A DNA stretch of 38,549 nt from Actinomycetes bacterium (GTDB lineage Bacteria; Actinomycetota; Acidimicrobiia; Acidimicrobiales; JABEUL01), in NCBI GenBank assembly GCA_021777355.1, contig JAJYDO010000018.1, positions 1 to 38,549 on the forward strand, given 5' to 3'. Shown here in pieces: positions 3,325-30,244 of this stretch; the stretch's first letter is position 1; each line of letters begins with the position of its first letter. The position numbers and the translations under genes were made by a program. The notes beneath the pieces are model-generated. The model ran no database searches and was not told where the DNA came from. It saw only the letters and a list, made by a program, of their open reading frames with translations.

Positions 3325-3369
3325 TGGTGCCCCCGGCAGGACTTGAACCTGCGACGCACGGTTTAGGAA
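3325..3369 (-). repeat. att-like copy of tRNA-Arg(CCU) 3' half, left end
   Basis: Minus strand TTCCTAAACCGTGCGTCGCAGGTTCAAGTCCTGCCGGGGGCACCA: anticodon loop, T-arm, acceptor 3' strand and CCA, with no 5' half. Confidence 0.85.
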
Positions 3370-3470
3370 TCAGATTTACATCGTCTACTTAGTACTACCC
3401 TGTATCATCTAGCCTGCTCAGTAAGGGTTCCAGTCCATCTAGTACTAGGGTGTTTCAACTTATTATGTGC

Positions 3471-3495
3471 ATTTGATTCCCATTTGATTCCCAAA
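3471..3495. promoter_or_regulatory. Tandem 11-bp repeats ATTTGATTCCC-ATTTGATTCCC(AAAG), putative integrase arm-type sites, left
   Basis: Same 11-bp-period pair is found at 15056-15080 at the other end of the island. Confidence 0.55.
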
Positions 3496-3942
3496 GATAA
3501 CGTTTTCCAACCCCCGCCTTCAGGAAAGTTGTCGGAAGTGAAAGTAGTATTTAGGGCACTTGCAATGAAAAGAAATAATGGAAACTCGTTACTCACGAGT
3601 TCGACCAGGGATAATCTGTTCCAATTGCCTGGTCAAATAATTTGAGCTTCTCCTTTCAGAACTTCTAGCTTCGCATTTCCGAATTTGCGAATTACTCACT
3701 TGCCAGTTTTGACACGTTGCTTCTGCGTCAAGGCGCCTTCGCCTCACTGTCGGGCAGCGTGACGGAAGTCTCGATGTTTGCTGGCTTAATCAGTAGGAAT
3801 ACCTTGGCTCCAAGATACCTCAGAGCATTTTTCAGACACTCTCTGAACTTCGGTGGTGGGAAATTACTCGGCAAACTTAAACGGGTTGATTTAGCCCTTA
3901 AGGAGTGTGAAGCTGTGGCGGCGATTTCCATTTTTTTACGGC

Positions 3943-3970
3943 AGCGCGTTCAAACTTTCTTTATATGTTC
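3943..3970 (-). repeat. 28-bp inverted repeat, copy 1 (mate at 9703-9730)
   Basis: Minus strand GAACATATAAAGAAAGTTTGAACGCGCT; 27/28 match to the plus strand at 9703-9730. Confidence 0.8.
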
Positions 3971-4061
3971 TAGGAAACTCGCTATCCAATTAGCCATATG
4001 TCTTGATTGAGCTGCCCAAGGCATGTGTCCAGTATAGTGGACAATTCCATCTCATTTAAAT

Positions 4062-4718
4062 CTAATGTGTGTAGTTTCCGTCTGATCCCTTTGGAATAAC
4101 GTCAGCAATTGAACATGCATTCTTAACATTGACGGTTGCAGTTCCCTCGTAAGTTCCCACTGTTGTCCCTACTGGCAGTCCTTGAATTGAGGTTGACAGT
4201 GGAGTGCTCCCATCATAAATAACTAAATATCCGCATTCAAACTTGGCACTCGTATTTGAATACTTAATTGCTATTTGAACAAGCTGACATTTTTGGCCCT
4301 CAGCTACACACATTCCAACACCAACTTGCAAAGTATCAGGAATTTCTACTGGTTTAGTGTTTGCGGGATTTTTAATTGACTCGGGCCATCCATATTGATT
4401 GGCCTCATGATTGATAATTTGCGTAATCTGATTTGCAGTTGGGAAATACCCTCCATTTTCAGTCCAAATTGCTTGAACATCCATTTTCAAAGTCGGCAAA
4501 TTATCTACTGCCCCGTCCGGTCCATAACCTGGAGAATAAGGGGGTACTTGTCCGCATACATGACTAGTGGAGCTAGTCGCATACTGCAATGGAGTACATC
4601 TATGGCTTAAAATCTTGATCCCAACAAGAATAGCTACCACCAGAGTTAATGCTAACGTCACCATCAGGATTACAGTACGCTTCTTGTGCAACTTAATATC
4701 GACTGTATTGCCTAGCAT
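4062..4718 (-). CDS. Membrane-anchored extracytoplasmic protein, hypothetical
   Basis: N-terminal basic stretch plus one TM helix (TVILMVTLALTLVVAILVGIKIL) and a Cys-containing ectodomain; 24 nt after the upstream gene. Confidence 0.65.
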   Translation of the reverse strand: MLGNTVDIKLHKKRTVILMVTLALTLVVAILVGIKILSHRCTPLQYATSSTSHVCGQVPPYSPGYGPDGAVDNLPTLKMDVQAIWTENGGYFPTANQITQIINHEANQYGWPESIKNPANTKPVEIPDTLQVGVGMCVAEGQKCQLVQIAIKYSNTSAKFECGYLVIYDGSTPLSTSIQGLPVGTTVGTYEGTATVNVKNACSIADVIPKGSDGNYTH

Positions 4719-4742
4719 ATTTCTTCCTTTCTCTTCATTGAC

Positions 4743-6104
4743 TTAAGAACAGGCACTCCAGTTCTCGCTAAAACGGTCATCGAACCAACCGCTACCCGAA
4801 CTGGGGAAGGCGGACGGGTTCGAATACGAGTTAGGCGATAGTGTCGCCAATACATTCGATCCGGGTTGGATTTGCATTGTACCCAGTGATTGGTAATGTG
4901 AATAAAATCCAAGATCACCGAACTTGATATAAGGAAGTGACTGACTTTGGTTAGGTCCTCCCCATTTAGAGAAGTAAGCCCGTGTTTCGGAAAATGTACT
5001 TTTCCCAAAATCAGCAAGTGGGAACTCCTGCTGATTAGATTGACCGCAATTACTCTCACAAGGTGCTTCCACCATCCATACTGCTACCTCGTTTGTATAG
5101 CTACCCGTAAGATTGTAATAATTTTTTGCATTAGTACCTAAAACATCAACTGTAGAACTTGAGCACCCAAGTTTGCTTTCATCATGCATTATGAAACTCA
5201 CACCAGAATAAGCACCATTATAGCTAAAAGACACGTTCAATGCCATTATGTCATTTGCAGAGGGAGTGCATCCGTTGGAAAATGAGGGAAACTTGGGACC
5301 AGCTGGATCGCTGTTACTCAGAACTTCCGTAAACGGAGCACTCGGTCCTCCATCTTGTTGTAACATGCCTTCTTGCATCAAGCCGCGATCATGGAGATCA
5401 TATAGCCCAATCCAGTTTGAGACGGCAGTTGGATAACATGACGATGATTTAGTTTTGCCGATAACAGTTTCTGCTGATACATCGTACATTTCACCTTGAG
5501 GATAACTCGATGTAGCACTAGCGTAGAATCCTCCCCAATTTTGGCCAGCAGTCGAATTTTCCACAGTATTACGGATAGTACTATTACCCAAACTGCTAGC
5601 CTGTCGTGACGACGGCCCTTTATAGGCCTGTAACTGCAATCCACCTGTTGCAGTTACAGGCACTTCTTCTTGAATTGATCTTGAGGGTGTTAACGTTATC
5701 GACCCCCACTCATTGTCCCACTGTTGAGCGCCCAGCGGATCCGTAGGCTTCGGTGGAAAACCATACGTTTTTAATTGTTCTGATGACGCTGTTTTAGCAT
5801 TGAAATTCGGGGGCGTTACAAGGTTATACACCACACCTGTCGATGTCTTGAAAACTTGCTTATATCCACCGTCCGGAAGATAAATAACGGCAGGGTTTGG
5901 CAAAACTTTTGCCATAGTATAAGATGGCGTAATTGACGAAACAAGTCCTATTTGACGCGATGCTCCACATCGAGAATTGTGATTAATTGGAGAAGAAATT
6001 GATCTTACTACTTGTGACTTCGTTTCTCCATATAATCCAGATCCTAAGCCGATGGACAGCAATCCTGCGAGTTTCCACTTGCTAATGTTGTTAGATCTAG
6101 TCAA
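4743..6104 (-). CDS. Secreted eqolisin/peptidase G1-like protein
   Basis: Signal-like N-terminus; NWGGFYA...SNWIGLYD...LMQEG and VAVWMVEAP....FPLADFGKSTFSETRA resemble G1 peptidase motifs (WxG, WvGL, Q-x-G, WivEaP, plAdFG); propeptide-like YGFPPKPTDP. Confidence 0.65.
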   Translation of the reverse strand: MTRSNNISKWKLAGLLSIGLGSGLYGETKSQVVRSISSPINHNSRCGASRQIGLVSSITPSYTMAKVLPNPAVIYLPDGGYKQVFKTSTGVVYNLVTPPNFNAKTASSEQLKTYGFPPKPTDPLGAQQWDNEWGSITLTPSRSIQEEVPVTATGGLQLQAYKGPSSRQASSLGNSTIRNTVENSTAGQNWGGFYASATSSYPQGEMYDVSAETVIGKTKSSSCYPTAVSNWIGLYDLHDRGLMQEGMLQQDGGPSAPFTEVLSNSDPAGPKFPSFSNGCTPSANDIMALNVSFSYNGAYSGVSFIMHDESKLGCSSSTVDVLGTNAKNYYNLTGSYTNEVAVWMVEAPCESNCGQSNQQEFPLADFGKSTFSETRAYFSKWGGPNQSQSLPYIKFGDLGFYSHYQSLGTMQIQPGSNVLATLSPNSYSNPSAFPSSGSGWFDDRFSENWSACS

Positions 6105-6775
6105 TTTCTTCTCTCCTTAGCTTTTCTAATAAGTCTATTTATTTTTGGTTCAATAACAGTTTCAAATAGTTCTCTGGTGATTGCGCAAAGCAACAGATCG
6201 CAATACTGACCATCAACATACACATGTCTTTTCAAGCGCCCCTCTATTTCGAAAAGTCTTCCCATGCCAGAAGAAAATTGGCCAAAATTATTCTCAGTTG
6301 TTTCAAAATAGAGCTTTCTAAATGGCCAAGTGTGGAATAAATATCTAATAAACAATCCAATTGCCTCCATTCCCAAGCCAATACCATGCCAATTTGAGCC
6401 CATCAGTATTCCAATATATGCGTGCCCGTTTCGAAAGTCACCGTTATAGCAAACTAAAATGCCATGCACCCTGGATGGCTGCTTTTTGCTGCAGATGGCG
6501 AATTGTACAATGATATTTTCGTTGACAGTGTTTGAAAACACCTCAATAGGAGGTAGGTCTCCCAAATATCTCCATCTATAGGCATTCGCTGGATCTGAGA
6601 TCAGTCCATATATCTGTGGTAAGTCGCTATGCTGTGCCGGCCTTAAGATTATTCTCTTCGTTTCCAACTCAACTCGAAGTGAACTGCTAAATTGGTCGCC
6701 ACTTCCTCCTACTTTCGCCTCCACTGTAGAAGTAGGAAGGTCGAATTGATGGTTCATTAGCTGTTTGCTATTCAT
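6101..6775 (-). CDS. GNAT-family N-acetyltransferase
   Basis: RIILRPAQHSDLPQIYGLISD...AYIGILMGSNWHGIGLGMEAIGLFIRYLFHTWPFRKLYFETTENNFGQFSSGMGRLFEIEGRLKRHVYVDGQYCD; probable start at MNSKQLM overlapping the upstream stop (ATGAATAG). Confidence 0.85.
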   Translation of the reverse strand: MNSKQLMNHQFDLPTSTVEAKVGGSGDQFSSSLRVELETKRIILRPAQHSDLPQIYGLISDPANAYRWRYLGDLPPIEVFSNTVNENIIVQFAICSKKQPSRVHGILVCYNGDFRNGHAYIGILMGSNWHGIGLGMEAIGLFIRYLFHTWPFRKLYFETTENNFGQFSSGMGRLFEIEGRLKRHVYVDGQYCDLLLCAITRELFETVIEPKINRLIRKAKERRN

Positions 6776-9653
6776 TCCCACCTCCGCCGACAGCTTTGAC
6801 CAGATCGTTGCCAAAGTCTGCGATCCATAGGTTCCCATTTGCGTCGTAGGCAATATTGGTTGGCAGGTTCAATTCAGCAGAAGTGGCAGAGCCAAGATTC
6901 CCAGAATTACCACAAGTTCCGTTTCCTGCAACGGTAGAAATATCACTAGTTGAAGAATTTACAAATCTAATTACACAGTTGTAAGTGTCGGCAACATAAA
7001 AGTTTCCACCTCCACCTTGGGATGCAAACTCAACTCCAACTGGCAGGTTCATTTCAGCACTTGTAGCAGCGCCGCCATCACCTGAGTAACCTGCAGTTCC
7101 GTTTCCTGCAAGCGTAGAAATATCACCCGTTGTTGGCCAAACTTCTCTAATTACGCTATTTCGAGCATCTGCAATAAGCATCACTCCGAATGAATTAACG
7201 TCAAGGCTGGTCGGAAAATTCAGTTCGGCAGAAGTTGCCAGCGAAGAATCACCAGAGTACTGTACTTTATTATTTCCCGCCACTGTAGATATTAAACTCG
7301 ACGACGCATTGATATACCTCACCACATTGTTGGATTGATCTGCAACATATACATCACCACTACTGTCCGCTGCGACGCTCCATGGCTGATTCAATTCAGC
7401 GCTAGTAGCTGCCCCTCCGTCACCTGAGTAACCAGCAGTTCCGTTTCCTGCGATAGTAGAAATGTCTCCTGTGGACGCAGTGACTTTTCTAACGACACTG
7501 TTGCCTTCGTCAGCGACAAGAATGTCGTCAGTAGAGTCTAAAGTAACGCCAGTTGGATTTGATAATTCAGCACTTGTAGCCGCGCCGCCGTCGCCTGAGT
7601 AACCAGCTGTGCCATTTCCTGCGATAGTAGAAATGTCTCCTGTGGACGCAGTGACTTTTCTAACGACACTGTTGTCAGTATCGGCAATAAATAAGTTATT
7701 AGATGAATCAACTGTTATGTCTGAAGGTCGCCCTAATTCGGCACTCGTAGCCGCGCCGCCGTCACCTGAGTAACCGTAGTTACTATTCCCAGCGACTGTC
7801 GAAATTAGATCGTTTGATTTGCTTATCTTTCTTATCACATTGTTATTCATGTCCGCAATATAAACGTTCGCCGAAGAATCACAACTCAACCCTGAAGGAG
7901 AGTTCAATTCAGCACTTGTAGCCGCGCCGCCGTCACCTGAGTAACCTGCAGTTCCGTTTCCTGCAATTGTGTAAATATCACCTGATGTCATAACCTGTCC
8001 GAAGAAGGTGCCACTTGAGGCTGGCACCATTCGAATTACATTGTTACCTTGATCTGCGATAAAAATATCTCCAGAAGAATCTAAAGCCACGCCAGTTGGC
8101 GCATTCAACTCAGCACTAGTGGCTGCTCCACCATCACCAGAGTAACCATTAATGTCGTTTCCTGCAACCACTACTTCCGAACTACCTGTTATCTCTCTAA
8201 TTACATTATGGACACTGTCCGCAATATATGTATTGCCGCCATAGTTCGCCATTCCGCTAGGAAGCTGAGATACCATCAAGGGGTTCCCTGAACCAGGTCC
8301 ACCTGCATAGGTGGAAATTACACCCTGTGTTGTTACATGCCTAATTCTATTATTGAAACTATCTGCAATCCAAAGATTCCCAGAAGGATCTATCCAGACA
8401 CCAAGGGGTTGGTGCAATTCAGCACTTGTAGCTGCGCCACCGTCACCTGAGTAACCAGCTGTACCATTTCCTGCAATTGTGTAAATATCACCAGATGTCA
8501 TGGTCTGTCCGAAGAAGGTACCACTTGAGGCTGGCACCATTCGAATTACATTGTTACCTTGATCTGCGATAAAAATATCGTTCGATGAGTCGACTGAAAC
8601 ACTACTTGGCCCATTCAACTCAGCACTTGTTGCCGCGCCACCGTTACCTGAGTAACCAGCTGTACCATTTCCTGCAATTGTAGAAATGTAATTAGTGGAA
8701 ACTATGATTTTCCTGATCACATTGTTTGATAAGTCTGCAACATAAACATTGCCATTCGAATCTATAGCCGTAGAGGCAGGATGGGATAATTCCGAATTAA
8801 CATCTAGCCCACCGTCACCGGAGTAACTATCAAATGTATTACCCGCCAATAAAGAAATATTATCGCTTGAATGGCTTACTTCCCGAATAACATTATTGTC
8901 GTGGTCACAAATATAAATATTTCCCGATGAGTCGACCGAAACACTACTTGGCCCATTCAACTCAGCACTTGTTGCCGCGCCACCGTTACCTGAGTAACCA
9001 GCTGTACCATTTCCTGCAATTGTGTAAATATCACCTGATGTCATGGCCTGTCCGAAGAAGGTACCACTTGAGGCTGGTACCATTCGAATTACGTTATTTG
9101 CCTGATCTGCAATAAAAATATCGTTCGATGAGTCGACCGAAACACCAGTTGGCGTATTCAATTCAGCGCTTGTAGCTGCGCCACCGTCACCTGAGTAACC
9201 GGCTGTGCCATAGCCTGCAATTGTGTAAATATCACCTGATGTCATGGCCTGTCCGAAGAAGGTACCACTTGAGGCTGGTACCATTCGAATTACGTTATTT
9301 GCCTGATCTGCAATAAAAATATCGTTCGATGAGTCGACTGCAATACCACTTGGCGCATTCAATTCAGCACTTGTTGCTGCGCCACCGTCACCTGAGTAAC
9401 CAGCTGTGCCATTGCCTGAGTTCACACTCATTGTGTTGGCACTAAGATTCATCGTCCGTCCCACATTGTGACGCGGATCTGACAAATAGAGGGAACTCCC
9501 TATAACTGATATTCCAAAACATTTGATGCTTGTTAAAGTTGGAGCATCATTACCAGCCCCGCCCGCGGCGGTGTAGATTTCTTGATTGTTGAACTGGCAA
9601 GAAGTTAAAACTATTGCCAAAAGCACTAAAAGAATAGATTTACGGAACGCCAT
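6768..9653 (-). CDS. NHL-repeat (beta-propeller) lipoprotein, about 14-15 repeats
   Basis: MAFRKSILLVLLAIVLTSC signal peptide with lipobox; repeated AGNGTAGYSGDGGAATSAELNxPxGVxVDSSxNIFIADxxNNVIRKV units; ORF extends to 9686 but MAFRKS is the likelier start. Confidence 0.9.
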   Translation of the reverse strand: MAFRKSILLVLLAIVLTSCQFNNQEIYTAAGGAGNDAPTLTSIKCFGISVIGSSLYLSDPRHNVGRTMNLSANTMSVNSGNGTAGYSGDGGAATSAELNAPSGIAVDSSNDIFIADQANNVIRMVPASSGTFFGQAMTSGDIYTIAGYGTAGYSGDGGAATSAELNTPTGVSVDSSNDIFIADQANNVIRMVPASSGTFFGQAMTSGDIYTIAGNGTAGYSGNGGAATSAELNGPSSVSVDSSGNIYICDHDNNVIREVSHSSDNISLLAGNTFDSYSGDGGLDVNSELSHPASTAIDSNGNVYVADLSNNVIRKIIVSTNYISTIAGNGTAGYSGNGGAATSAELNGPSSVSVDSSNDIFIADQGNNVIRMVPASSGTFFGQTMTSGDIYTIAGNGTAGYSGDGGAATSAELHQPLGVWIDPSGNLWIADSFNNRIRHVTTQGVISTYAGGPGSGNPLMVSQLPSGMANYGGNTYIADSVHNVIREITGSSEVVVAGNDINGYSGDGGAATSAELNAPTGVALDSSGDIFIADQGNNVIRMVPASSGTFFGQVMTSGDIYTIAGNGTAGYSGDGGAATSAELNSPSGLSCDSSANVYIADMNNNVIRKISKSNDLISTVAGNSNYGYSGDGGAATSAELGRPSDITVDSSNNLFIADTDNSVVRKVTASTGDISTIAGNGTAGYSGDGGAATSAELSNPTGVTLDSTDDILVADEGNSVVRKVTASTGDISTIAGNGTAGYSGDGGAATSAELNQPWSVAADSSGDVYVADQSNNVVRYINASSSLISTVAGNNKVQYSGDSSLATSAELNFPTSLDVNSFGVMLIADARNSVIREVWPTTGDISTLAGNGTAGYSGDGGAATSAEMNLPVGVEFASQGGGGNFYVADTYNCVIRFVNSSTSDISTVAGNGTCGNSGNLGSATSAELNLPTNIAYDANGNLWIADFGNDLVKAVGGGGNE
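9013..9338. repeat. Two identical 125-bp copies (9013-9137, 9214-9338) at a 201-bp period inside the NHL gene
   Basis: Direct comparison of both segments shows no mismatch; one unit encodes 67 aa. Confidence 0.9.
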
Positions 9654-9702
9654 TTTTTTCCACATTTGGCCTACATTAACACACATAGTTCACGCACCGC
9701 TT

Positions 9703-9730
9703 GAACATGTAAAGAAAGTTTGAACGCGCT
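9703..9730 (+). repeat. 28-bp inverted repeat, copy 2
   Basis: GAACATGTAAAGAAAGTTTGAACGCGCT; mate of 3943-3970 on the opposite strand. Confidence 0.8.
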
Positions 9731-10059
9731 AGAGACGGCGAGGGGCGACGAAGGAAGCCCGGAGCCTGACACTCCATTGGTAATTTTGTCAAAGCTTTCA
9801 CATAGAATGCAATTTATTTGATTAGTGTTTCAGATGAGTGCACTGCATGTTGGGTCAAGGATCTTGAATTGTTGAGACTTTCGAATCATTTGGAATACTT
9901 GTTGCCATTGGTGCTAGTTGACAGTAATTGCGACACTGACACTGTGAGTTATTGCAGTTCTGTCAGTCTCGCTAAGAGCTACATTTTAATTCCAACTAAC
10001 CTAATTATTCCAATACTTTTGCTAGATCAAGTTTCGACTGCTCCAAGTCAAGGTTAGCC

Positions 10060-10209
10060 CTATCCATTTTGCACTAACAGATCACCAAGAACTTGAGCCG
10101 CCATTGCATCTGAAGACTCAACAAAGTGGGCATAGACATTTAGTGTCGTAGCAGCATTAGCATGTCCAAGTCTTCCTGATACCGTTTTTACGGGCACTCC
10201 TGCGGCCAT
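10060..10209 (-). pseudogene. C-terminal fragment of the split island integrase
   Basis: MAAGVPVKTVSGRLGHANAATTLNVYAHFVESSDAMAAQVLGDLLVQNG*: tyrosine-recombinase box with GH and nucleophile Tyr, completing the truncated 15042..14038 fragment. Confidence 0.9.
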
Positions 10210-10215
10210 ACTGGT

Positions 10216-10228
10216 AATGAGCAATGTT
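10216..10228 (+). repeat. Terminal inverted repeat AATGAGCAATGTT (left)
   Basis: Perfect 13-bp match to the minus strand at 14023-14035. Confidence 0.85.
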
Positions 10229-10279
10229 CGAAATGTACGGAATAGGATTTAATACGGAAGTTTTAAGTAGCTATTCCGC

Positions 10280-12376
10280 TTAGTTCGCGATGGGTTCTTT
10301 GACTAATTGAGCTGCGTAGCCTGACCAACTTGCTCCGGCATCGGTTGACCAATGAACTGCAGTGGTGACGTGCATCCCAAGTAGTTCTGCTAGAGCCGCA
10401 GCGGGTAAACGCGCCGCAAGATAATTAAGAGAAGCTCGTCTTCCTGGCATAGTTCGAATACCAATCCTCCGAAGCCTTGCTCCCAGATTTGCTGCATTCA
10501 CCGGTCTGCTTGCATTTAACCCGGGGAATAACCAAATAGTATGAGTCGGAGTAGCAACACCGTTAAATTGACGCTTATTGTTGACTAATTTGATAATGAG
10601 ATTAGCTAGTGGTTGTTGCACTTCAATCCGAGTGGCACCAAGTGCTAAGTAGACGTTTTCGTTAGAGATGGTTAGTTGGTCGAGGGTCAAGGTTGCAATT
10701 CGTGAAATCGTTTGACCGTAGAGTAAAACAAGACATCCGGCAACTCGATCCCCGACTTCAAGTGAATTGTCGGCTAGCAATCGGTGAATAATCGCCCAAC
10801 GAGTTTCATCATCCATTGCTGTACCTGCACGCGAACGAGTCTTTGGAATGACCAACCTGTCGACAATCTTTTGTTTTATTGCCCAGTCAAGGAAATCACG
10901 GGTATGCTGAGCAAGCAACGGAGTCTCATCGAACAATTTGTCAATATTGCTTTGCCTGCACTCTGTAATGCCTATCTGAGTGGAATCTAGATAGGCGCAA
11001 AAAGCAATTGCTCCAATTAGGCAGTTCTTCGAATAGGCAATCGGTGTATTTACTCGATTTGAAATTGCAGCACGTTCACGAATTCTTCTCAAGACACGCC
11101 AAGTTGCATAAGAACGGAGCATCCGTCTATTCTCAGGTGTAGGTACTTCATCGAGCCGAGTTGCTACCCAAGCTTCTAGCTCAACAAGGCTGTCATTTCG
11201 GACTGGAAGTATATTGTGAGCTACCAACATCTGACGAACTAGGTTTGCTACCCTCTTATTCGGATGGATGTCAAGCGCCTCGTGAGTAAGAGCAATGTTG
11301 CCTTTAGCTAACTCAGCAATAATCGTCGCACTAGCAGACTTCGTTATCCAATTGTATGCACTAAATGGCTGAGGGTTGGAGATGATCGCTTGATATATCG
11401 GTGCTAGAGGACCGTTAATGTCGATAATGAGCGAGTTAGCTTGCTCTCTCAAGACACAGCGAATGCACAAGCCGTGCCGGTAAGGGCGCTCTTCTGCATT
11501 ACAGAGACGACAGCGTAATAGGTCGGGGGCACCGGAACAATCAACACATTGATTAGCACTTGGACCAGGCGGATGAACAAGTCGTCGCTCGGTCAAACAA
11601 GTAACGCAGATCCCTCTGCGACTCAAAGCAGCCCGGTAACAAGGTTCGCAAACCGGACCCTCCTTCCACTGCACCGTCGGATGAAGTAATTTGTCACAAT
11701 GAGAACATCTTTCTTTTCGGCGCGGAGAACATGATGCACAGATTGGGTTTCCAGACGCTACAAAGTTGCAGGGTCGTTCTCTATGACATACTCGGCATAT
11801 CGCAATATGCCCTCTGAAACAGCTATCGCAAATATCACCACTACCATCTTTGGAACGTAAAGCAATCTGTCGGATCTTCCCACATTTTGAACATAGACGT
11901 TTTGGTTTAGGCGTACAGGCAGAACACAATGCCGAACCGGTTGGACCCCTTCCGTAGACGACTTTGACCTTTTTGCAGGAAGAACAGGCTGTTGCTAGCT
12001 GTCTGCGTCTGCAATTTTCACATACCCCACCTTCATCTGACACAACTAGCTGAATCCCAGTTCTTTTGCATCGTACACAGGTTGGCTCTGGAAGCTCAAT
12101 GCCGTAAGAGCGCAGTGCATTAATGAGTTCTCCAACAGATTTAGGTGCCCCGAACAATAGTGCCTCATTGCCATGCTTCAAAGCATTTCGGATCGAATGC
12201 AAAGTGGCAGAACTTGTAATTTGCTGTTCAACGACTCGGGAAACTATGGTGCGGTCCACTTTGTCAGTTACAGCGATAACACTGTCAATTACCATATTCA
12301 TTGCGCAACCATGGCAAACATCGGTATATGTGGAATTGAAATTGCATGCGCTACATAGCTGCCTACGAGAACTCAC
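10280..12376 (-). CDS. Multi-zinc-ribbon protein with a C-terminal tyrosine-recombinase-like, probably catalytically inactive domain
   Basis: About 7-8 CxxC...CxxC modules in the N-terminal ~350 aa; C-terminus ...GQTISRIATLTLDQL...WLFPGLNASRPVNAANLGARLRRIGI...LAARLPAAALAELLGMHVTTAVHWSTDA. ORF opens at 12475; GTG at 12376 (VSSRRQLCSAC) overlaps the upstream stop by 14 nt and is preferred. Confidence 0.75.
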   Translation of the reverse strand: MSSRRQLCSACNFNSTYTDVCHGCAMNMVIDSVIAVTDKVDRTIVSRVVEQQITSSATLHSIRNALKHGNEALLFGAPKSVGELINALRSYGIELPEPTCVRCKRTGIQLVVSDEGGVCENCRRRQLATACSSCKKVKVVYGRGPTGSALCSACTPKPKRLCSKCGKIRQIALRSKDGSGDICDSCFRGHIAICRVCHRERPCNFVASGNPICASCSPRRKERCSHCDKLLHPTVQWKEGPVCEPCYRAALSRRGICVTCLTERRLVHPPGPSANQCVDCSGAPDLLRCRLCNAEERPYRHGLCIRCVLREQANSLIIDINGPLAPIYQAIISNPQPFSAYNWITKSASATIIAELAKGNIALTHEALDIHPNKRVANLVRQMLVAHNILPVRNDSLVELEAWVATRLDEVPTPENRRMLRSYATWRVLRRIRERAAISNRVNTPIAYSKNCLIGAIAFCAYLDSTQIGITECRQSNIDKLFDETPLLAQHTRDFLDWAIKQKIVDRLVIPKTRSRAGTAMDDETRWAIIHRLLADNSLEVGDRVAGCLVLLYGQTISRIATLTLDQLTISNENVYLALGATRIEVQQPLANLIIKLVNNKRQFNGVATPTHTIWLFPGLNASRPVNAANLGARLRRIGIRTMPGRRASLNYLAARLPAAALAELLGMHVTTAVHWSTDAGASWSGYAAQLVKEPIAN

Positions 12377-12719
12377 TTTTAATCTCCGATATGATGTTTG
12401 CTCTTTTTGGTGGGATTGTGAGTGTGCCAACTCTGGCTGATGGCTTGCTCGCAACTGGAGCTGAACTTCCATCACATATTGGCTCGACCAAATCTGTCGG
12501 GCTACATCCTAAGATGTCACAAAGTGCAGATAAGGTCATCAGGTTTAACCGTTTAGGCGTCCCAGTGACTAGCCGATATACCTGTTCCCTAGAAAGCTTC
12601 ACCCCACGATCGGCTAACAGTGGCACAAGATCTGACGTTGCAAACATCTTCCTTTGAGCCATTATTGATCGAAGATGCCAATGGAAGCTAATAGACGAGA
12701 CTTGACCTTGAGTACTCAT
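12363..12719 (-). CDS. Small helix-turn-helix (XRE/Cro-like) protein
   Basis: MFATSDLVPLLADRGVKLSREQVYRLVTGTPKRLNLMTLSALCDILGCSPTDL pattern; ATG overlaps the upstream recombinase stop (TAATG). Confidence 0.8.
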   Translation of the reverse strand: MSTQGQVSSISFHWHLRSIMAQRKMFATSDLVPLLADRGVKLSREQVYRLVTGTPKRLNLMTLSALCDILGCSPTDLVEPICDGSSAPVASKPSARVGTLTIPPKRANIISEIKSEFS

Positions 12720-13804
12720 TAGTAACTCCCGGCAGGGAATGCCTGGTCTAACGCAACCCTAAGCATTCGGTTGGTAAAGTCCGATCCAATGTGAGTATAG
12801 ATTGCAGTAGTCGATGCCCAGGAATGCCCTACTTGGTGTTGTACAAATAGCGGATCAACTCCTTTTTCGATCAAGTGAGACACGTATGAATGCCTTAGGG
12901 AATGAACAGACAGTTCAGTTGGTAGACCAGCTTCAGCTCGCCAGCTAGCAAACCGCTCGTCGATACTTCGAGGTGAAAGCCTTCCACCACGTTCGGTCAA
13001 CCACAGTGCAGGATTTCTAGCGGACTCCACATGTTGTGTGCGAACTTCATCCACATATTGAGCTACAACCTCAGCTGCCCATGGAAACACTGTTGCTACA
13101 GCGCGACGTCTAGGAGGGCTGCCACGCAGTGCCTTGCCAAATCGAACCTGACATATTCCAAATGAGCCCAACTCAAGAGCTGCCGGGTTTGGACCGAAAT
13201 CATTAACGTCCAACATCGCTGCTTCTCTGCGCCGGAGCCCCCATGCATAAATCACCTTCAACAATGTCGCATCTCGAAACGCAGCAAACCATCCCTTTCT
13301 AGGTGAAATAGCAGCATCGACAATCGCTGCATCTGCTACATCAAAAAACGCCTGAAGTTCTAGTCGAGTAAAAGGACGTCTTGCAGGCCGACCCTCATAG
13401 TCTGAAACGTGAACAGCTGTATTTCGTTCGTGACAGATTTGGATTGGGACAACACCTATGCGATCCAGGCATTCAGCTGCCCACCCATATCGGGGATCGC
13501 AAAGAAACTCCATGAAGAGCGACAGTGATCCCTCGTAGGTTCTAATAGTAGAATGTGCCCAGTTTCCACTGGAAATCCACTCATCAACCTGGTCAGAACG
13601 CCACTCCCAAGGCCAGTTTCCACAGAACTCTCGGAACCTACGCACTACTCTTTCACGATCACGTATCACTGATAAAGAAAGTCTTCGGGCGGAATGCTGA
13701 CGTCGCCAACCTTCCAACATAGCGTCAAACATAGCTGCTTCAGCGTGCAAAGGCGTGGCCGAATTCACCATAACCAACGCAGCAGAACCCGAAGGTCTCA
13801 CCAT
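12719..13804 (-). CDS. Tyrosine recombinase/integrase, apparently intact
   Basis: YAWGLRRREAAMLDVNDF (Arg I), HSLRHSYVSHLIEKG (HxxR), QVGHSWASTTAIYTHI (GH and Tyr). Confidence 0.92.
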   Translation of the reverse strand: MVRPSGSAALVMVNSATPLHAEAAMFDAMLEGWRRQHSARRLSLSVIRDRERVVRRFREFCGNWPWEWRSDQVDEWISSGNWAHSTIRTYEGSLSLFMEFLCDPRYGWAAECLDRIGVVPIQICHERNTAVHVSDYEGRPARRPFTRLELQAFFDVADAAIVDAAISPRKGWFAAFRDATLLKVIYAWGLRRREAAMLDVNDFGPNPAALELGSFGICQVRFGKALRGSPPRRRAVATVFPWAAEVVAQYVDEVRTQHVESARNPALWLTERGGRLSPRSIDERFASWRAEAGLPTELSVHSLRHSYVSHLIEKGVDPLFVQHQVGHSWASTTAIYTHIGSDFTNRMLRVALDQAFPAGSY

Positions 13805-13832
13805 GGCATCCTCCTTAGTGATCGGAGCACCA

Positions 13833-13886
13833 GATACAACATTATGTAATCTGATGCAACATTACTTAATGCATCATTGTTGCATC
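13833..13886. promoter_or_regulatory. Iteron-like operator upstream of the recombinase: GATACAACATTATGTAAT, GATGCAACATTACTTAAT (20-bp period), inverted third copy ending TGTTGCATC
   Basis: Direct repeats at 13833 and 13853; 9-bp inverted repeat GATGCAACA (13853-13861)/TGTTGCATC (13878-13886); located 29-82 bp upstream of the start. Confidence 0.6.
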
Positions 13887-14022
13887 TATTGAATTAGAAG
13901 TGGTGGATACCCGCTGTGATCAGCACTTAGACACGCGATGAATTAGAGATGGAGCTAAAGCTGAAAAACGTTTTCCCAGGTGGGATGTCATCGCGAACCC
14001 TACGGAATGATGCAAAATCTAC

Positions 14023-14035
14023 AACATTGCTCATT
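14023..14035 (-). repeat. Terminal inverted repeat AATGAGCAATGTT (right)
   Basis: Mate of 10216-10228. Confidence 0.85.
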
Positions 14036-14037
14036 TG

Positions 14038-15042
14038 CATTCTCGTGGCCGCAAAGTGCCTCAAGTCATGAAGACGCACTCCCTCTATTTGGAGACCTTT
14101 ACATAGCCGCATAAAAGCTAGAGTTACTTTGCCTGGTCTCCAACACGCACCTCCATCAGCTCTGTCAGAGAAGATAAAAGCATTGGGAGTTAATGAAACA
14201 CCACACTTGCTTGCTCTATCCCTACATGTTTCATGCCAATCCTGGAGCAAGAGGCAGGTATCGCTATCAAGAGATATTGTTCTAGCGGAATGAGTTTTAG
14301 TGTCCTTTTCAATCATTTGATCGTTTTTATCTCCAACAATTGAGCGAGATATTGTAACTATGCCTTTTTTAAGATCAACATCACTCCATCTAAGGGCACA
14401 TAGCTCACCACGTCTCGCACCAGAAATAGTTGCCAGTCGCAAAAGGCATCCGAATCCTGGGTCAGATAATGTAGCGGTATCTATTAATTTGACGACTTGA
14501 CTAACAGTTGGAACAATGACTTGACTTTTCCTAACTTTAGGCGGGCTAGATTGGCTTGCCGGATTAGATGATACCCATCCCCATTTAACTGCTTGGCCAA
14601 GTATTCGATGGATTAAGGCATGGATATGTCTCACACTCTGAGCACTCAGTGGCTGGCCATCTACTCCGCCTGATTTCTTAAGCCTTGTATAAAACGTATC
14701 TAAATCAGAAGCTCTTAAACCCCTAACTTTACGGGAGCCAAAATTTGGCAATATATGTCGATTGAGTAGACGCTTGTACTCATTTAGTGTGGAAGGCGAT
14801 AATGAATCGCCGGTTATCTCCAGCCACTTTCTAACAAGTTCTGCTAAAGTGCCTTCAGTTGTCGCATCTGCTCCTGCTCCCACTTCGACTAGAAGTTGAC
14901 TTAGCTCGTCTTGTGCGTGTCGTTTGGTGCCATGAATTGTGCGAGTTAGATACATTCGCCGTTTTGTATCTTTGTTAACCCCAAGGAAGACTTTCGCCCG
15001 CCAAGTTCCTTTCCCCCGGGGTTCTAAATGCCCTTGCACCAA
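14038..15042 (-). pseudogene. N-terminal part of the island phage-type tyrosine integrase, truncated after HDLRHFAATRM (ORF runs on to 13927 in insertion-derived sequence)
   Basis: SAM-like N-terminal domain, ISGARRGELCALRWSDVD (Arg I), HDLRHFAATRM; the GH and Tyr motifs are absent here and found at 10209..10060. Confidence 0.9.
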
Positions 15043-15055
15043 ACCAACTTACCAC

Positions 15056-15080
15056 ATTTGATTCCCAAAAGATTCCCAAA
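15056..15080. promoter_or_regulatory. Tandem 11-bp repeats ATTTGATTCCC-AAAAGATTCCC(AAA), putative integrase arm-type sites, right
   Basis: Same pair and orientation as 3471-3495; lies just upstream of the integrase start. Confidence 0.55.
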
Positions 15081-15134
15081 TATAGACCTCTGACACTTTG
15101 GGACGGAATGTGTAACCCCCTGACAAGGACTTTC

Positions 15135-15179
15135 TGGCGCCCCCGGCAGGACTCGAACCTGCGACGCACGGTTTAGGAA
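15135..15179 (-). repeat. att-like copy of tRNA-Arg(CCU) 3' half, right end
   Basis: Minus strand TTCCTAAACCGTGCGTCGCAGGTTCGAGTCCTGCCGGGGGCGCCA; no recognisable GCCCCCG 5' acceptor strand or D-arm at the expected distance. Confidence 0.85.
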
Positions 15180-25246: not shown

Positions 25247-28200
25247 CTAACTGCTTCCATCGTTAAACCAACCCGAAATGTCTACTATTACTTCGACGTT
25301 ACCTGCCAAGTTGTAGATAGATACTTGGCCTGGCTGAGGTGAAGTAGGCGAACTCAGTTTTGATACCACTAAGTTTGGAACTATCTGATTCTGTACCCAA
25401 TTCAGATTTGAGGCAACTGGCATTGTTGAGTCCTCTGGGTAGAGAGTTAAAAAGCTCGAAGAGCTTGGCGCCGCAACAGTCACATTCATTATTGCTCCAG
25501 ATGCGCCAGCAGGAGCACTTCCCAGTATGCCCGTTACCTGAAGATTTAATGACGACTTAGGGCCGAGCATTGCGCATGGTGATGGAGTACAAGAGCCTTG
25601 GCTGAATCTCGTATCCAATATTCTCTCAGGGACAAGGGCATTGAAACGTGAGCCGTTGATACTGCCGGGCTGAGAGTACCAGCCCATTACATCGATTACG
25701 ACATCAACGGTGCCTTGCATATTGTATAAAGTGACGCTTCCGTCACTACCCAGCTTTGTCGAAACCAAATTTGGAACAACCTGACCAGGAACGTAATTGA
25801 GATTTGAAGCAACTGGCGGGTTCGTCCCTGTTGGGAAAACAGTTAAGTAGCTTGCCATTGTAGGATTTGCTACGGTCACATTCATGATCACGCCGGTTGC
25901 TTGGCCTGCCGGAACACCTCCAGCCCCAGCTACATTGACCGTTAAATAGCTGTTCGGACCTAATGTTGCACAAGGCGCAGGAGTGCAACTTCCCATAGCT
26001 GACCTAGTGTCAAGTATCCGAGCCGGCGACAATGGGTTATATCTTGACTCTGCCACCGTTGTTCCGTCAGTGTAATATCCGACTACATCGGCAATGACAT
26101 CCACAGAACCATAGGAATTATAAATATCTACTTTTCCGGAACCGAGTTTCACCGTAACGAGATTAGGTACCGCAGGTTGACCTTGAACAAGATTCAAGTT
26201 GGAAACCACTGGCAAGGAATTGCCATCTGGGTAAACAGTTAAAAACCCAGATGCAGTTGGATCTGCTGCTGTTACATTCATCACTACAGCCGAGGCCCCA
26301 TTTAACGGAACCCCGCCTCTCCCAGCAACTTGAAGCACAAGAGTTTGCTGTTGCCCAATTGGCGCAATAACGCCCCCTGTTCCGTTTCCATATCGAGTAT
26401 CTAGGATCCGATCCGGTGGCAGCGGAACAAACTCTCCTAAAGTGATCTGTGGGTAGACTACTTCTGATATCGCCGGCTCTCCTGCACCAGCAGCATTTAC
26501 GGCTTGAACGCTTACACGATAACCCTGCATGTTAATCAGACCCGACAATGAATAAGACAAAACTCCTGAAGCAACAGTTATAGGTGCTGGAGCCGAAGGT
26601 CCATTTAGGGTTATGACGTAAGAAGTAATAGGTGAACCACCATCAAACACCGGAGGCTGCCATGAAATATGCAATCCGGAATTAACGGGATTAGCCTGCA
26701 AATCACGAGGCCGAGAGGGCGCTTCCACCGGAGATGATATAGCTAATGCATCGGGGCTTGCCCCCGTGGGGAGAGACATCGGGGTTTCTGGAAGATTCGA
26801 TGCAGTGGCGATGGGTGTAACTTCGTTTGAGTTGTAATTTGCAACGTAGACCGTACTACCATCTGGACTCACAACTATTGCATTTGGTCCGGACTGAGCA
26901 CCGCTTGTGTCAACTATTGCTGGTTCAACAACGCCTCTGATTAAGTCAATTGGAGTGACTGTTTTAATGCCATTTGAAACATACAATGTATTGCCATTTG
27001 GAGTGATTGCAATTCTATATGGTTGCGTAATTACAAACTGCTGTGGCTCAATTCCAATTGGATCAGTGCCAAGGTCGAGGATTGAAACCGTTCCATCAAA
27101 GAAATTTGTCACATATGCTTTTGTTCCGTCAGAAGAAATAACCATTGAAGTAGACCCATTTCCTGGAACCACCTCACTATTTGGATCCAATTCCCAAGTT
27201 GAACCGTTTAAATACATCCTTGCGACAAGTCCTGGACTTGTAGAGCTTCCACAAAGCACGTAAGCGTAACTTCCGTCGGGCGAAAACACCAACGCTTCCG
27301 GTGGCGCCGGAAGCGATATGGTCGACCCAAAGGTTTGCGAAGGTATGTCGAATACTCTAACCGTTGAATCTGCACTTAACCCAACCAATGCAGTGCTGCC
27401 GTCAGGGGAAATTGCTATTGGATAGGGATCACAACTCGTGCCTGTTGAACATGCATCAATTGGTGTCTCTGGAGTTGGTGGGGTTGTTTGGAGATCGATT
27501 GGAGTTAAGGTTCCATCGCCACCATTATTTACTAGTGCCAGCGATCGATCGGGAGTAATGGCAATGCCTGAAGGATCACTTCCAACATTTAGGGGAGATC
27601 CAAGTACGTTACTAAAAACTGAAAAAGAATAAACCTTTGCAAGTCCCGCCGTTGCTACTAATCCGATTGGTTGGCTACTCGTTATTAGGTAAACAAATCT
27701 GTCAATATAACCAAGATCTGAGCTTGTGCCATTTGCAGTAACGACAGTGACTAGCTCTGTGCCTGAACCCGGTGGCGAGATTACCGTTAGACGTGAAGCT
27801 GAATCTACTTGGGCATAAGGTGCTTGTGTTCCCGCAAAAAATACCTGTGTCTCCGGCGTAAAACCAGAACCCGTTATGGCAACTTGTGCACCCCCCGCAT
27901 TTGAGCCCGATGCAGGTGTAATCGATAAGACACTCGGCGCTTCGTTCGCGACAATTGCAACTGGATTAGTTCCCACCGATATTGTCGGATCTGCAGTGTC
28001 ACTAGTAAGATCAATTGGGGTGACAGTGTTGTCGTTTGCATTTGTGACATCGGCAAAGTTTCCACCATTCACAATAGCGACAGCACTAGGTGAGGCACCT
28101 ACTGACACATTTGCAATTATCGCCATTGTAGACATGTCAATAACGTCTATCGTGTCATCTTGCCTGTTTGCAACAACTGCTTCAGTCCCGTCAGGTGTTA

Positions 28201-30244
28201 TTGCAATTGCATCTGGAGTTGCGCCAACTGCGAATGTGCTTCCCACATTTGGCGTAGACCCAAGGAATATCGGTGTTACTGAGCCTGACGCGCTAGCTGA
28301 GTTCGAATTGACTATCAAAGCGGTTGTTCCATCTGGTGAGATTGCAATTGCTACAGGTTCATTCCCGACTCCAATTGCTTGCCCTACTACTGCCCTGGTG
28401 TTTCGGATGTCGACTGGCACAACAGTGTTATCTTTTTCGCAGACTACGTAAGCAGTAAGGCCATCAGGGGTTATTTCCACGGCGACAGGGTCATTGCATA
28501 CTGTCACAGCTGGATAAACAATAGGAGGCGATGTAGTTAAATCTATTGTGTATAAGAAATTAGTTGATCCATCGGTTACAACTGCGAGCTTCCCATCAGG
28601 AGTCACCGCGATTGCATTGACACCAGGTGAAACCGTAATTGCCGAGCCAACGGTATTAGTCGAAGTATCTATCGGAGAAATCGTTCCTGATGTAGAATTC
28701 GCTACATATAATGTCTGCCCGTCAGATGAAAGTGCAGCACTTTCTGGAGCAGTGCCTACTGACACGTTAGGGATAGTAGATTGTGGAGAAGTGCTTGTGG
28801 TGATGGGTGTGACCTCCCCACTAGTTTGATCCACGACATAGGCAGAATCTCTCCCATAAGCAAATAAATCTGCATCATTTAAAGCTGAGCTGCCATTTAA
28901 GTTAGAAACTGAAATGTCTACAGTTGGAGTAGTCCCCGATGGAGATGATGGTGGAACAGTTGCGGTAATTTCGGTAGACGATACAACACTTTCCCCGCTA
29001 GCCGGTTGCGATCCGAAATAGACAACCGATCCTGGCAGAAATCCCGATCCCGAGATGGTTACCAGCTCCCCTCCACTGAACGATCCACTGGATGGTGAGA
29101 CGTGTGTGACTTGTGGTGTTGGCATTATTGCAATAGCAGAAGCCCCACTCCCCACACACACTGGCGAGGACGCCACATTAGTCAAAGTATTTATTACAGT
29201 GACGCTTCCATTTGACCCGTATGCTCCGCAGCTCGAATCACCTTGCAAATTCAAGACCGCAAGGGCCGCTCCACCCTCTCCAAATGCCATAGGGCCGGGC
29301 GATTGATCTACATAAATAGGGTTCCCTACTGTTCCACTGGAAGTAGCAATTGGTGTTACGTCATTGTTCGTCATGTCGGCGGCATAAGCATAATTACCGT
29401 TCGGAGATACAACAACATTTGAAATATCTCCAACCGGGAGACCAACTGTAGAAGATACACTTTGCGCTGCGGTTGACACTACCGTTACATCTGAAGCAAT
29501 TCCATCGTTGAGATAGGCATATAAGCCGTCCGGGGTGAAGGAGGTCGTCGAATTATAAGTACCTACGCCTAAACTTATTACATTACCCAACGTACCCGAG
29601 GGGAGCTCGATCTGAGTGATACTTTGGCCTGTATATTCCACGTATGCCACGTCCCCCGCCGGATTAAGTGTTAACGACTGGGGATGTTTTCCAACTGCGA
29701 TAGAGGTGAGTGGAGTGGGAGGAGTCGTAGCAAGGTCAAACGGGGTCACATAGCCACTTGCGCCTGATGGATTTGCATCAAGCACATAGGCTTTTGTCCC
29801 ATCAGGAGAAATTGCAATCGAGACGGGATCTGATCCGACTGATACTGATGTCCCAACCACTGGTGGGGAGACCGTAAGGTTAAGAGGATACATAACATTG
29901 TTTGTGCTATCTGTAACCCACGCTGTCGTATCATCGGGCGTAATAGCAATTGCATTCGGAGTAGAACCAGTAGGTAGATTAATCGGCGTACCTGCCACAG
30001 GCGGGTTAAGCGAAATATTTATTGGAGTTACTGTTCCGTCTCCCGAGTTGGTCACATAGGCAGTGTCGCCGCCAACAACCTTCATTGATGACTGCCTAAA
30101 AAAATAAGATTCATGCGGAAATAGAGGTGCCCAAAATGACGCCAGCAGCATTATAACAACAGTTGCTAACACCAATTTAGATAGAGGGGACTTTTGCTTT
30201 TGGACCCTTGCACTTGGGAGTATTATTTCCCCTATCTGGTACAT
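25247..30244 (-). CDS. Large exported multidomain protein: YVTN-type beta-propeller repeats, two IPT/TIG domains, one Fn3, three C-terminal 'RILDTR' repeats
   Basis: AYVTNSGDGTVTPI / IAITPDGTTAWV repeats; VTHVSPSSGSFSGGELVTISGSGF and VLSITPASGSNAGGAQVAITGSGF; PSRPRDLQANP...LHISWQPP; PPDRILDTR, SPARILDTR, VPERILDTR. Confidence 0.9.
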   Translation of the reverse strand: MYQIGEIILPSARVQKQKSPLSKLVLATVVIMLLASFWAPLFPHESYFFRQSSMKVVGGDTAYVTNSGDGTVTPINISLNPPVAGTPINLPTGSTPNAIAITPDDTTAWVTDSTNNVMYPLNLTVSPPVVGTSVSVGSDPVSIAISPDGTKAYVLDANPSGASGYVTPFDLATTPPTPLTSIAVGKHPQSLTLNPAGDVAYVEYTGQSITQIELPSGTLGNVISLGVGTYNSTTSFTPDGLYAYLNDGIASDVTVVSTAAQSVSSTVGLPVGDISNVVVSPNGNYAYAADMTNNDVTPIATSSGTVGNPIYVDQSPGPMAFGEGGAALAVLNLQGDSSCGAYGSNGSVTVINTLTNVASSPVCVGSGASAIAIMPTPQVTHVSPSSGSFSGGELVTISGSGFLPGSVVYFGSQPASGESVVSSTEITATVPPSSPSGTTPTVDISVSNLNGSSALNDADLFAYGRDSAYVVDQTSGEVTPITTSTSPQSTIPNVSVGTAPESAALSSDGQTLYVANSTSGTISPIDTSTNTVGSAITVSPGVNAIAVTPDGKLAVVTDGSTNFLYTIDLTTSPPIVYPAVTVCNDPVAVEITPDGLTAYVVCEKDNTVVPVDIRNTRAVVGQAIGVGNEPVAIAISPDGTTALIVNSNSASASGSVTPIFLGSTPNVGSTFAVGATPDAIAITPDGTEAVVANRQDDTIDVIDMSTMAIIANVSVGASPSAVAIVNGGNFADVTNANDNTVTPIDLTSDTADPTISVGTNPVAIVANEAPSVLSITPASGSNAGGAQVAITGSGFTPETQVFFAGTQAPYAQVDSASRLTVISPPGSGTELVTVVTANGTSSDLGYIDRFVYLITSSQPIGLVATAGLAKVYSFSVFSNVLGSPLNVGSDPSGIAITPDRSLALVNNGGDGTLTPIDLQTTPPTPETPIDACSTGTSCDPYPIAISPDGSTALVGLSADSTVRVFDIPSQTFGSTISLPAPPEALVFSPDGSYAYVLCGSSTSPGLVARMYLNGSTWELDPNSEVVPGNGSTSMVISSDGTKAYVTNFFDGTVSILDLGTDPIGIEPQQFVITQPYRIAITPNGNTLYVSNGIKTVTPIDLIRGVVEPAIVDTSGAQSGPNAIVVSPDGSTVYVANYNSNEVTPIATASNLPETPMSLPTGASPDALAISSPVEAPSRPRDLQANPVNSGLHISWQPPVFDGGSPITSYVITLNGPSAPAPITVASGVLSYSLSGLINMQGYRVSVQAVNAAGAGEPAISEVVYPQITLGEFVPLPPDRILDTRYGNGTGGVIAPIGQQQTLVLQVAGRGGVPLNGASAVVMNVTAADPTASGFLTVYPDGNSLPVVSNLNLVQGQPAVPNLVTVKLGSGKVDIYNSYGSVDVIADVVGYYTDGTTVAESRYNPLSPARILDTRSAMGSCTPAPCATLGPNSYLTVNVAGAGGVPAGQATGVIMNVTVANPTMASYLTVFPTGTNPPVASNLNYVPGQVVPNLVSTKLGSDGSVTLYNMQGTVDVVIDVMGWYSQPGSINGSRFNALVPERILDTRFSQGSCTPSPCAMLGPKSSLNLQVTGILGSAPAGASGAIMNVTVAAPSSSSFLTLYPEDSTMPVASNLNWVQNQIVPNLVVSKLSSPTSPQPGQVSIYNLAGNVEVIVDISGWFNDGSS

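Follow-up and report, generated by a model that had tools for sequence, protein, structure and literature searches.

The locus described here raises the question of whether the place at which one mobile element enters another can be specified by sequence. In a 38,549-nucleotide (nt) stretch of DNA from an Actinomycetes bacterium of the Acidimicrobiales (contig JAJYDO010000018.1, positions 1 to 38,549; the window), the integrase gene of a genomic island is split by a nested element carrying three genes, A, B and C (the trio). The ends of this insert are exact, and its position recurs in several unrelated integrase genes carrying relatives of the element. Very probably, the trio is a compact Tn554-like transposon that entered the integrase gene of a tRNA-Arg island by site-specific insertion, its attachment site being the DNA that encodes the conserved HxLRHT motif. 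The split gene alone is a modest finding, but gains weight because catalytic codons of integrases are targeted repeatedly and at a position fixed by a motif. A reading made earlier from the letters of the window (the sequence-only reading) recognised the split, but not that the whole clade of the inner element repeatedly uses this insertion point as a target defined by a motif.

The split integrase and its island

The N-terminal and catalytic part of the island integrase (14037..15042, minus strand) runs through HDLRHFAATRM and the first base of the next codon, and is 78% identical to an intact homologue. The PF00589 match of the open reading frame (ORF) from 15042 stops at profile position 142 of 172, with unrelated sequence beyond. 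The C-terminal part (AAGVPVKTVSGRLGH...NVYAHF...; 10060..10208, minus strand), continuous in relatives, is here severed from its start; in the Pfam profile search the 49-amino-acid (aa) stretch 10209-10060 matches positions 143-168. The loss of homology after HDLRHFAATRM and the place and strand of the missing end are as the sequence-only reading had them, as is the absence of 10060-10209 from the ORFs supplied to it, a list that holds ORFs of 80 aa or more. Its proposal that the pieces rejoin also holds: cutting out 10209-14036 gives a single in-frame 384-aa integrase, and uninterrupted genes of this kind are found in related genomes. The joined protein is 79.6% identical over 382 of 384 aa to a single ORF in G331:C81 (306 of 386 positions identical in a global comparison), 72% identical to a homologue in G393:C96 and 75% identical to an intact paralogue elsewhere in its own genome (G000:C26). 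These alignments extend end to end, and in them both pieces fit the same integrase subfamily.

Since the uninterrupted genes read ATG-CTG/CTA-GCN at the junction, the limits of the insert can be placed at 10209-14036 (minus strand; about 3.83 kb, the end base being uncertain by 1), between AGAATGC and TGGCC, which are joined directly when the insert is removed. The limits first proposed were 10210-14037. The join had been put in the right place with one residue wrong, the restored peptide being ...HDLRHFAATRM-L-AAGVPV... (that is, ...HDLRHFAATRMLAAGVPVKTV..., with the reading frame kept) and not M-M-AAGV. No target duplication is detectable, the uninterrupted homologues showing no duplicated bases.

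The region 3325-15179 is bracketed by direct 45-nt att repeats derived from the 3' end of tRNA-Arg(CCU), which bears out the outer island assumed by the sequence-only reading. The repeat at 15135..15179 (minus strand), about 90 nt from the start of the integrase, is a displaced 3' end that matches exactly that of an intact tRNA-Arg(cct) on contig C100; the second, at 3325..3369 in the same orientation, has 2 mismatches over a 35-nt query. Because same-orientation copies of the tRNA-Arg 3' end lie at both borders, 3325-15179 is an 11.8-kb genomic island of the usual tRNA kind. As had been claimed, the order of the catalytic boxes in the two pieces places HxxR apart from GH and Tyr. With its GH and Tyr cut off, the island integrase should be inactive, and the outer island can fairly be taken to have lost its mobility. 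The intact paralogue on contig C26 adjoins the same tRNA-Arg sequence, so that the cell may contain a helper acting in trans, for which this 75%-identical integrase is a plausible candidate. In another genome of the genus, an integrase 90-94% identical to that of the window is frame-broken (L056; G396:C110, positions 1-974). That contig stops about 31 nt short of the insertion site, where the assembly may have been interrupted by a repeat.

Integration of SSV-like viruses likewise leaves an integrase in two pieces, one on either side of the integrated element, and the split gene might on that account be the inner element's own integrase, with attP inside the gene. However, the inner element has a recombinase of its own, and the integrase halves lack the direct att repeats of an SSV-type suicidal integrase, the end repeats being inverted. 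The split integrase adjoins the tRNA-Arg att repeat of the larger island, and intact homologues lie beside the same tRNA without the trio, which is absent from those genomes. Suicide integration is thus scarcely credible. The trio is present in single copy in its source genome and was not found in the same-genus and same-family genomes tested.

Recurrent insertion at catalytic codons

In a tree of 96 A proteins, that of the window falls in a clade of nine (support 99/93), eight of which have readable insertions, L066 being unreadable. In six of the eight the element interrupts an integrase gene at one and the same codon, 11-12 codons past the H of HxxR. The left flanks end in HDLRHFAATRM in the window, HDLRHTHASLP in L063, HDLRHTHVAWL in L062, HDLRHTFATAH in L065 and HQFRHTVGTRL in L067, whilst L043 can be fully read only on its right flank, an integrase tail (DAGVPLRDVQEAASHADPRTTMRYDRGR...). 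Pfam matches of the flanks end at profile positions 138-142 of 172 in the window, L062, L063 and L065. The insertion falls about 21 nt past the L-R-H-T codons, between the C and the TN of the next Leu codon, with a CTNMGGCACACC-type DNA motif, formed by the L-R-H-T codons, at a fixed distance upstream. The motif YTNMGGCACACC is found exactly, at a single offset, in L062, L063, L064 and L065; L067 departs from it by one base and the window by three. Exact matches have a background rate of about 7 per million positions; as the motif was derived from the sites on which it is counted, the fixed offset and the diversity of the genes carry the weight, not a p-value. At L064 the target is not an integrase gene but a tandem repeat, which continues past the element with no base lost or gained, and in which the DNA sequence CTGCGGCACACC reproduces the Leu-Arg-His-Thr codons at the identical distance. 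The presence of this sequence in a non-integrase suggests that the target is recognised as DNA.

A sister clade of 39-40 elements (support 100/100), with the common left end AACCCTCGGGAATTGCATC, inserts at a different catalytic codon. Integrase genes make up 24 of its 31 readable flanks and are cut at one place, just past the nucleophile Tyr (Y-x/NP-RELHQ, the slash marking the junction); in 18 of the 24 the Pfam match ends at 166-168 of 172. TA[C/T] stands at one offset in 29/29 integrase sites and also in the off-targets L077, L084, L085 and L178. The missing integrase tails lie beyond the right end of the element in L044, L117, L118, L129 and L173. Thirty flanks form 25 clusters at 60% identity, so the insertion events are largely independent; the thirty include L085, which was dropped as an integrase because its Pfam match is a 2'-5' RNA ligase. 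Among ten complete plasmids forming an independent set, the sister-clade left end is present in eight, where the gene entered is an integrase in seven and an IS3-like transposase in the other. The most decisive evidence for targeting is provided by plasmid pDK3 of Rhodococcus sp. DK180, where two 100% identical copies of 4067 bp lie in two different integrase genes, one flanked by ...GHVWIATTMHYVH with the tail SIEQLAAEYGAARASL and the other by ...GHALLTTTQRYLT with the tail RKQDVIRRILAHH.

Other insertions of trios were also seen. The Tyr-clade off-targets L178 and L077/L084 lie in IS3-like and ISL3 transposase genes, where the DNA copies the (T)TAC core. At L181 (3766-11092) an inner trio lies just past the catalytic Tyr of the A gene of an outer trio, the B and C genes of which are found beyond it, and a similar-looking trio is nested in or next to another at L080 (9488-16835).

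An ordinary transposon could also hit an integrase gene by chance, in which case the position would mean nothing. It is not unusual for the integrase gene of a genomic island to carry an insertion, and some clades of the element family have other targets, namely the ends of nrdJ and of M23 peptidase genes. Yet chance would have to account for the use of one codon in all six unrelated integrases entered by the clade, for a DNA motif at a fixed offset, for the Tyr codon in 24/31 and 7/8 sister-clade sites and for one plasmid with two identical copies in two integrase genes. Furthermore, integrase-profile matches were found in 18 of 73 left flanks and in none of 47 control regions lying 3-4.2 kb further out. 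A chance hit is therefore very improbable.

The clades with other targets have fixed positions of their own. A third clade (12 rows, support 95/83) lies directly behind genes ending in an (H)xDHxH motif; the left flanks of L069, L070, L079, L081, L103, L126, L133, L136, L162 and L163 have M23 or SLT cell-wall hydrolase domains where tested. The trios at L046 (2720-5860) and L165 (1551-4659) lie directly behind the 3' end of ORFs ending in CPSCG(N/T)TSGCS and a stop codon; by Pfam the L046 ORF is a class II ribonucleotide reductase (nrdJ), which that of L165 only looks like. A conserved coding motif specific to each clade thus appears to be the rule for target choice in the family.

The constant position and orientation of the upstream integrase might instead indicate that it is a fourth gene of the element, in a multi-recombinase unit of the RIT or GInt kind, where three recombinase-like genes stand in a row. 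Were this so, the upstream integrases would not be expected to be as diverse as they are (25 clusters among 30), nor would the missing tail lie beyond the far end of the element, as it does in the window, L043, L044, L117, L118, L129 and L173. Identical copies of the element have different upstream integrases, and several contigs begin exactly at the element end. The fourth-gene explanation has very little probability.

Insertion behind the Tyr codon allows a further possibility in the sister clade, that the element supplies a replacement C-terminal tail and the integrase stays active. The left end in the RELHQ clade (L082-L142) encodes an in-frame tail (RELHQTGEKSQVA...) of exactly 30 codons in 26 of 40 copies. 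In that frame pN/pS (the ratio of non-synonymous to synonymous polymorphism) comes to 0.82, compared with 0.97 and 1.02 for the other frames. This signal of selection is weak, however, the length and sequence of the tail vary, and the pDK3 insertion is shifted out of the tail frame. Tail donation is thus unlikely, although less so than the alternatives above; it has no bearing on the window, in which the integrase is severed from its Tyr.

The trio and comparable elements

The three genes lie on the minus strand with slight overlaps. Gene A (12719..13804) encodes a 361-aa XerD-like tyrosine recombinase (PF00589, E=1.3e-20) in which R, HxxR, GH and Y are present and the catalytic columns are conserved. 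Gene B (12363..12719) encodes a 118-aa helix-turn-helix (HTH) protein of the Cro/C1 type (HTH_26, PF13443, E=6.9e-17), which is kept between A and C in relatives. Gene C (10280..12376) encodes about 698 aa, with conserved Cys pairs in a zinc-ribbon array followed by a C-terminal recombinase-like domain; in the alignment R646 and Y687 are invariant, whereas the His of HxxR and the Arg of box I are not kept. A profile-profile comparison of C with A gave a probability of 0.1%, but was too shallow. The predicted structure settles the fold as that of a degenerate tyrosine recombinase: the AlphaFold model of C (predicted local distance difference test score, pLDDT, 84.6; predicted template modelling score, pTM, 0.59) has as its best PDB matches only tyrosine recombinases, namely XerA, lambda Int, Cre and Tn1549 Int.

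The element ends in a perfect 13-bp inverted repeat, AATGAGCAATGTT on the left (14023..14035, minus strand), which relatives keep as AARTGnGCnnnGTTGCA, and AACATTGCTCATT on the right (10216..10228, minus strand), followed by ACCAGT[A/T] at the element end. The right ends of relatives were read from the sequence, as an automatic scan for the best inverted match gave noise. Perfect repeats like those of the window are not general among the relatives checked, which conserve only the core site. The gene order A-B-C is conserved across Actinobacteria, and relatives number at least 520. Homologues of C occur in 242 plasmid records and in none of the phage records, and no match of A to phages spans most of the protein.

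The use of another mobile element's recombination system as a landing site has a parallel in the res-site hunter transposons of the Tn5053 family. These have a DDE transposase and target the res sites of serine resolvases, whereas the trio targets coding motifs of tyrosine recombinases. The target of Tn554 of Staphylococcus aureus is a unique site in radC, in contrast to the catalytic codons of recombinase genes that are used by the trio. Both Tn554, which is site-specific with a single att site (as cited in PMC3414803), and the trio have a three-gene recombinase module. The closest counterparts are the Tn554-related transposons described by Van Houdt et al. (2012; PMC3414803), which share the trio's architecture, are likewise compact and occur in Actinobacteria. 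They have a short recombinase of about 350 aa, a long one of 611-828 aa with a long N-terminal extension and a TnpC-like partner, a small third gene being present in most; their targets, integrase genes included, are not described there. The size and catalytic residues of A agree with the short recombinase, and the length and C-terminal fold of C with the long one; of the catalytic motif, C keeps R646 and Y687 in the alignment but not the HxxR His and the box I Arg. Two of the published examples, pRHL2 and pRHL3, have no detectable homologue of C, and match A at 30-31% over 51-71 aa. The likeness therefore supports the view that the trio works as these transposons do, while membership of their family by sequence is not supported.

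Other multi-recombinase systems are more distant. In the SE and GInt systems, for which a circular intermediate has been demonstrated (PMC10214605, PMC5385486), there are also several recombinase-like genes, one without the catalytic set, a small extra gene and site-specific insertion, but the gene sets, hosts and targets differ. With its three genes, one recombinase with the catalytic set and one degenerate, the trio has neither the ginABCD nor the intA-tfp-intB-srap composition. RIT elements share the three contiguous overlapping genes and occasionally insert in genes of mobile elements, such as a Tn6049-like transposase or the radC of a Tn4371-like integrative and conjugative element (ICE) (PMC3414803). 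Their three genes are all recombinases with catalytic motifs, whereas in the trio gene B encodes an HTH protein and the recombinase domain of C is degenerate. Gamma-mobile-trio (GMT) elements do not fit either, A scoring 18 and 16 bits against the GmtY and GmtZ NCBIfam cut-offs of 340 and 600, and C having no match.

Choice of target and its consequences

It is likely that A, perhaps together with C, would recombine the palindromic end cores of the element with the target, and by analogy with Tn554, SE and GInt elements the cut-and-join may proceed through a circular intermediate. B and C may help to choose the insertion site, candidates for reading the motif being the zinc ribbons in C and the HTH domain in B. 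Because off-targets carry the motif DNA, the view best supported by the insertion sites is that the site is chosen by DNA sequence and not by the gene product.

Several points weigh against site-specific insertion at HxLRHT-encoding DNA. The clade of the window has only eight readable insertions, of which L068, like L064, is outside integrase genes. The motif is weaker at the window's own site (three mismatches, LRHF), and its derivation and counting share the same sites. A readable right-side integrase tail is available in this clade only for the window and L043, and the evidence consists entirely of genomic sequences.

While elements of this kind are known, their use of recombinase genes as attachment site appears to be new, no report of such targets having been found in searches of the open-access literature. 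One class of mobile element here has as its landing site the coding DNA that is most conserved in the recombinase of another class. Inteins and homing introns in catalytic motifs offer a parallel, although here the agent is a tyrosine-recombinase transposon. A tentative extension, which may well not hold, is that the trios are recombinase hunters, separate clades having adopted the DNA of different catalytic motifs of the tyrosine-recombinase superfamily (box II HxLRHT; nucleophile TTxxY) as attachment site. They would thereby gain endless targets on islands, plasmids, ICEs and their own relatives, and the HxxR clade, by immobilising the elements it enters, would act as a brake on competing mobile DNA.

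Targeting of this kind predicts that, widely among Actinobacteria, integrases have been inactivated or had their tails swapped without this being apparent. Where the Tyr is retained, annotation would show an intact gene, and otherwise one lacking its C-terminus, which bears on calls of island and ICE mobility. The trio may also offer a natural site-specific insertion system, the target of which can be read from sequence and directly tested.

Elsewhere in the window are two long beta-propeller-like repeat proteins, one of 972 aa (6768-9686) that is cargo of the island and one of 1665 aa (25247-30244).

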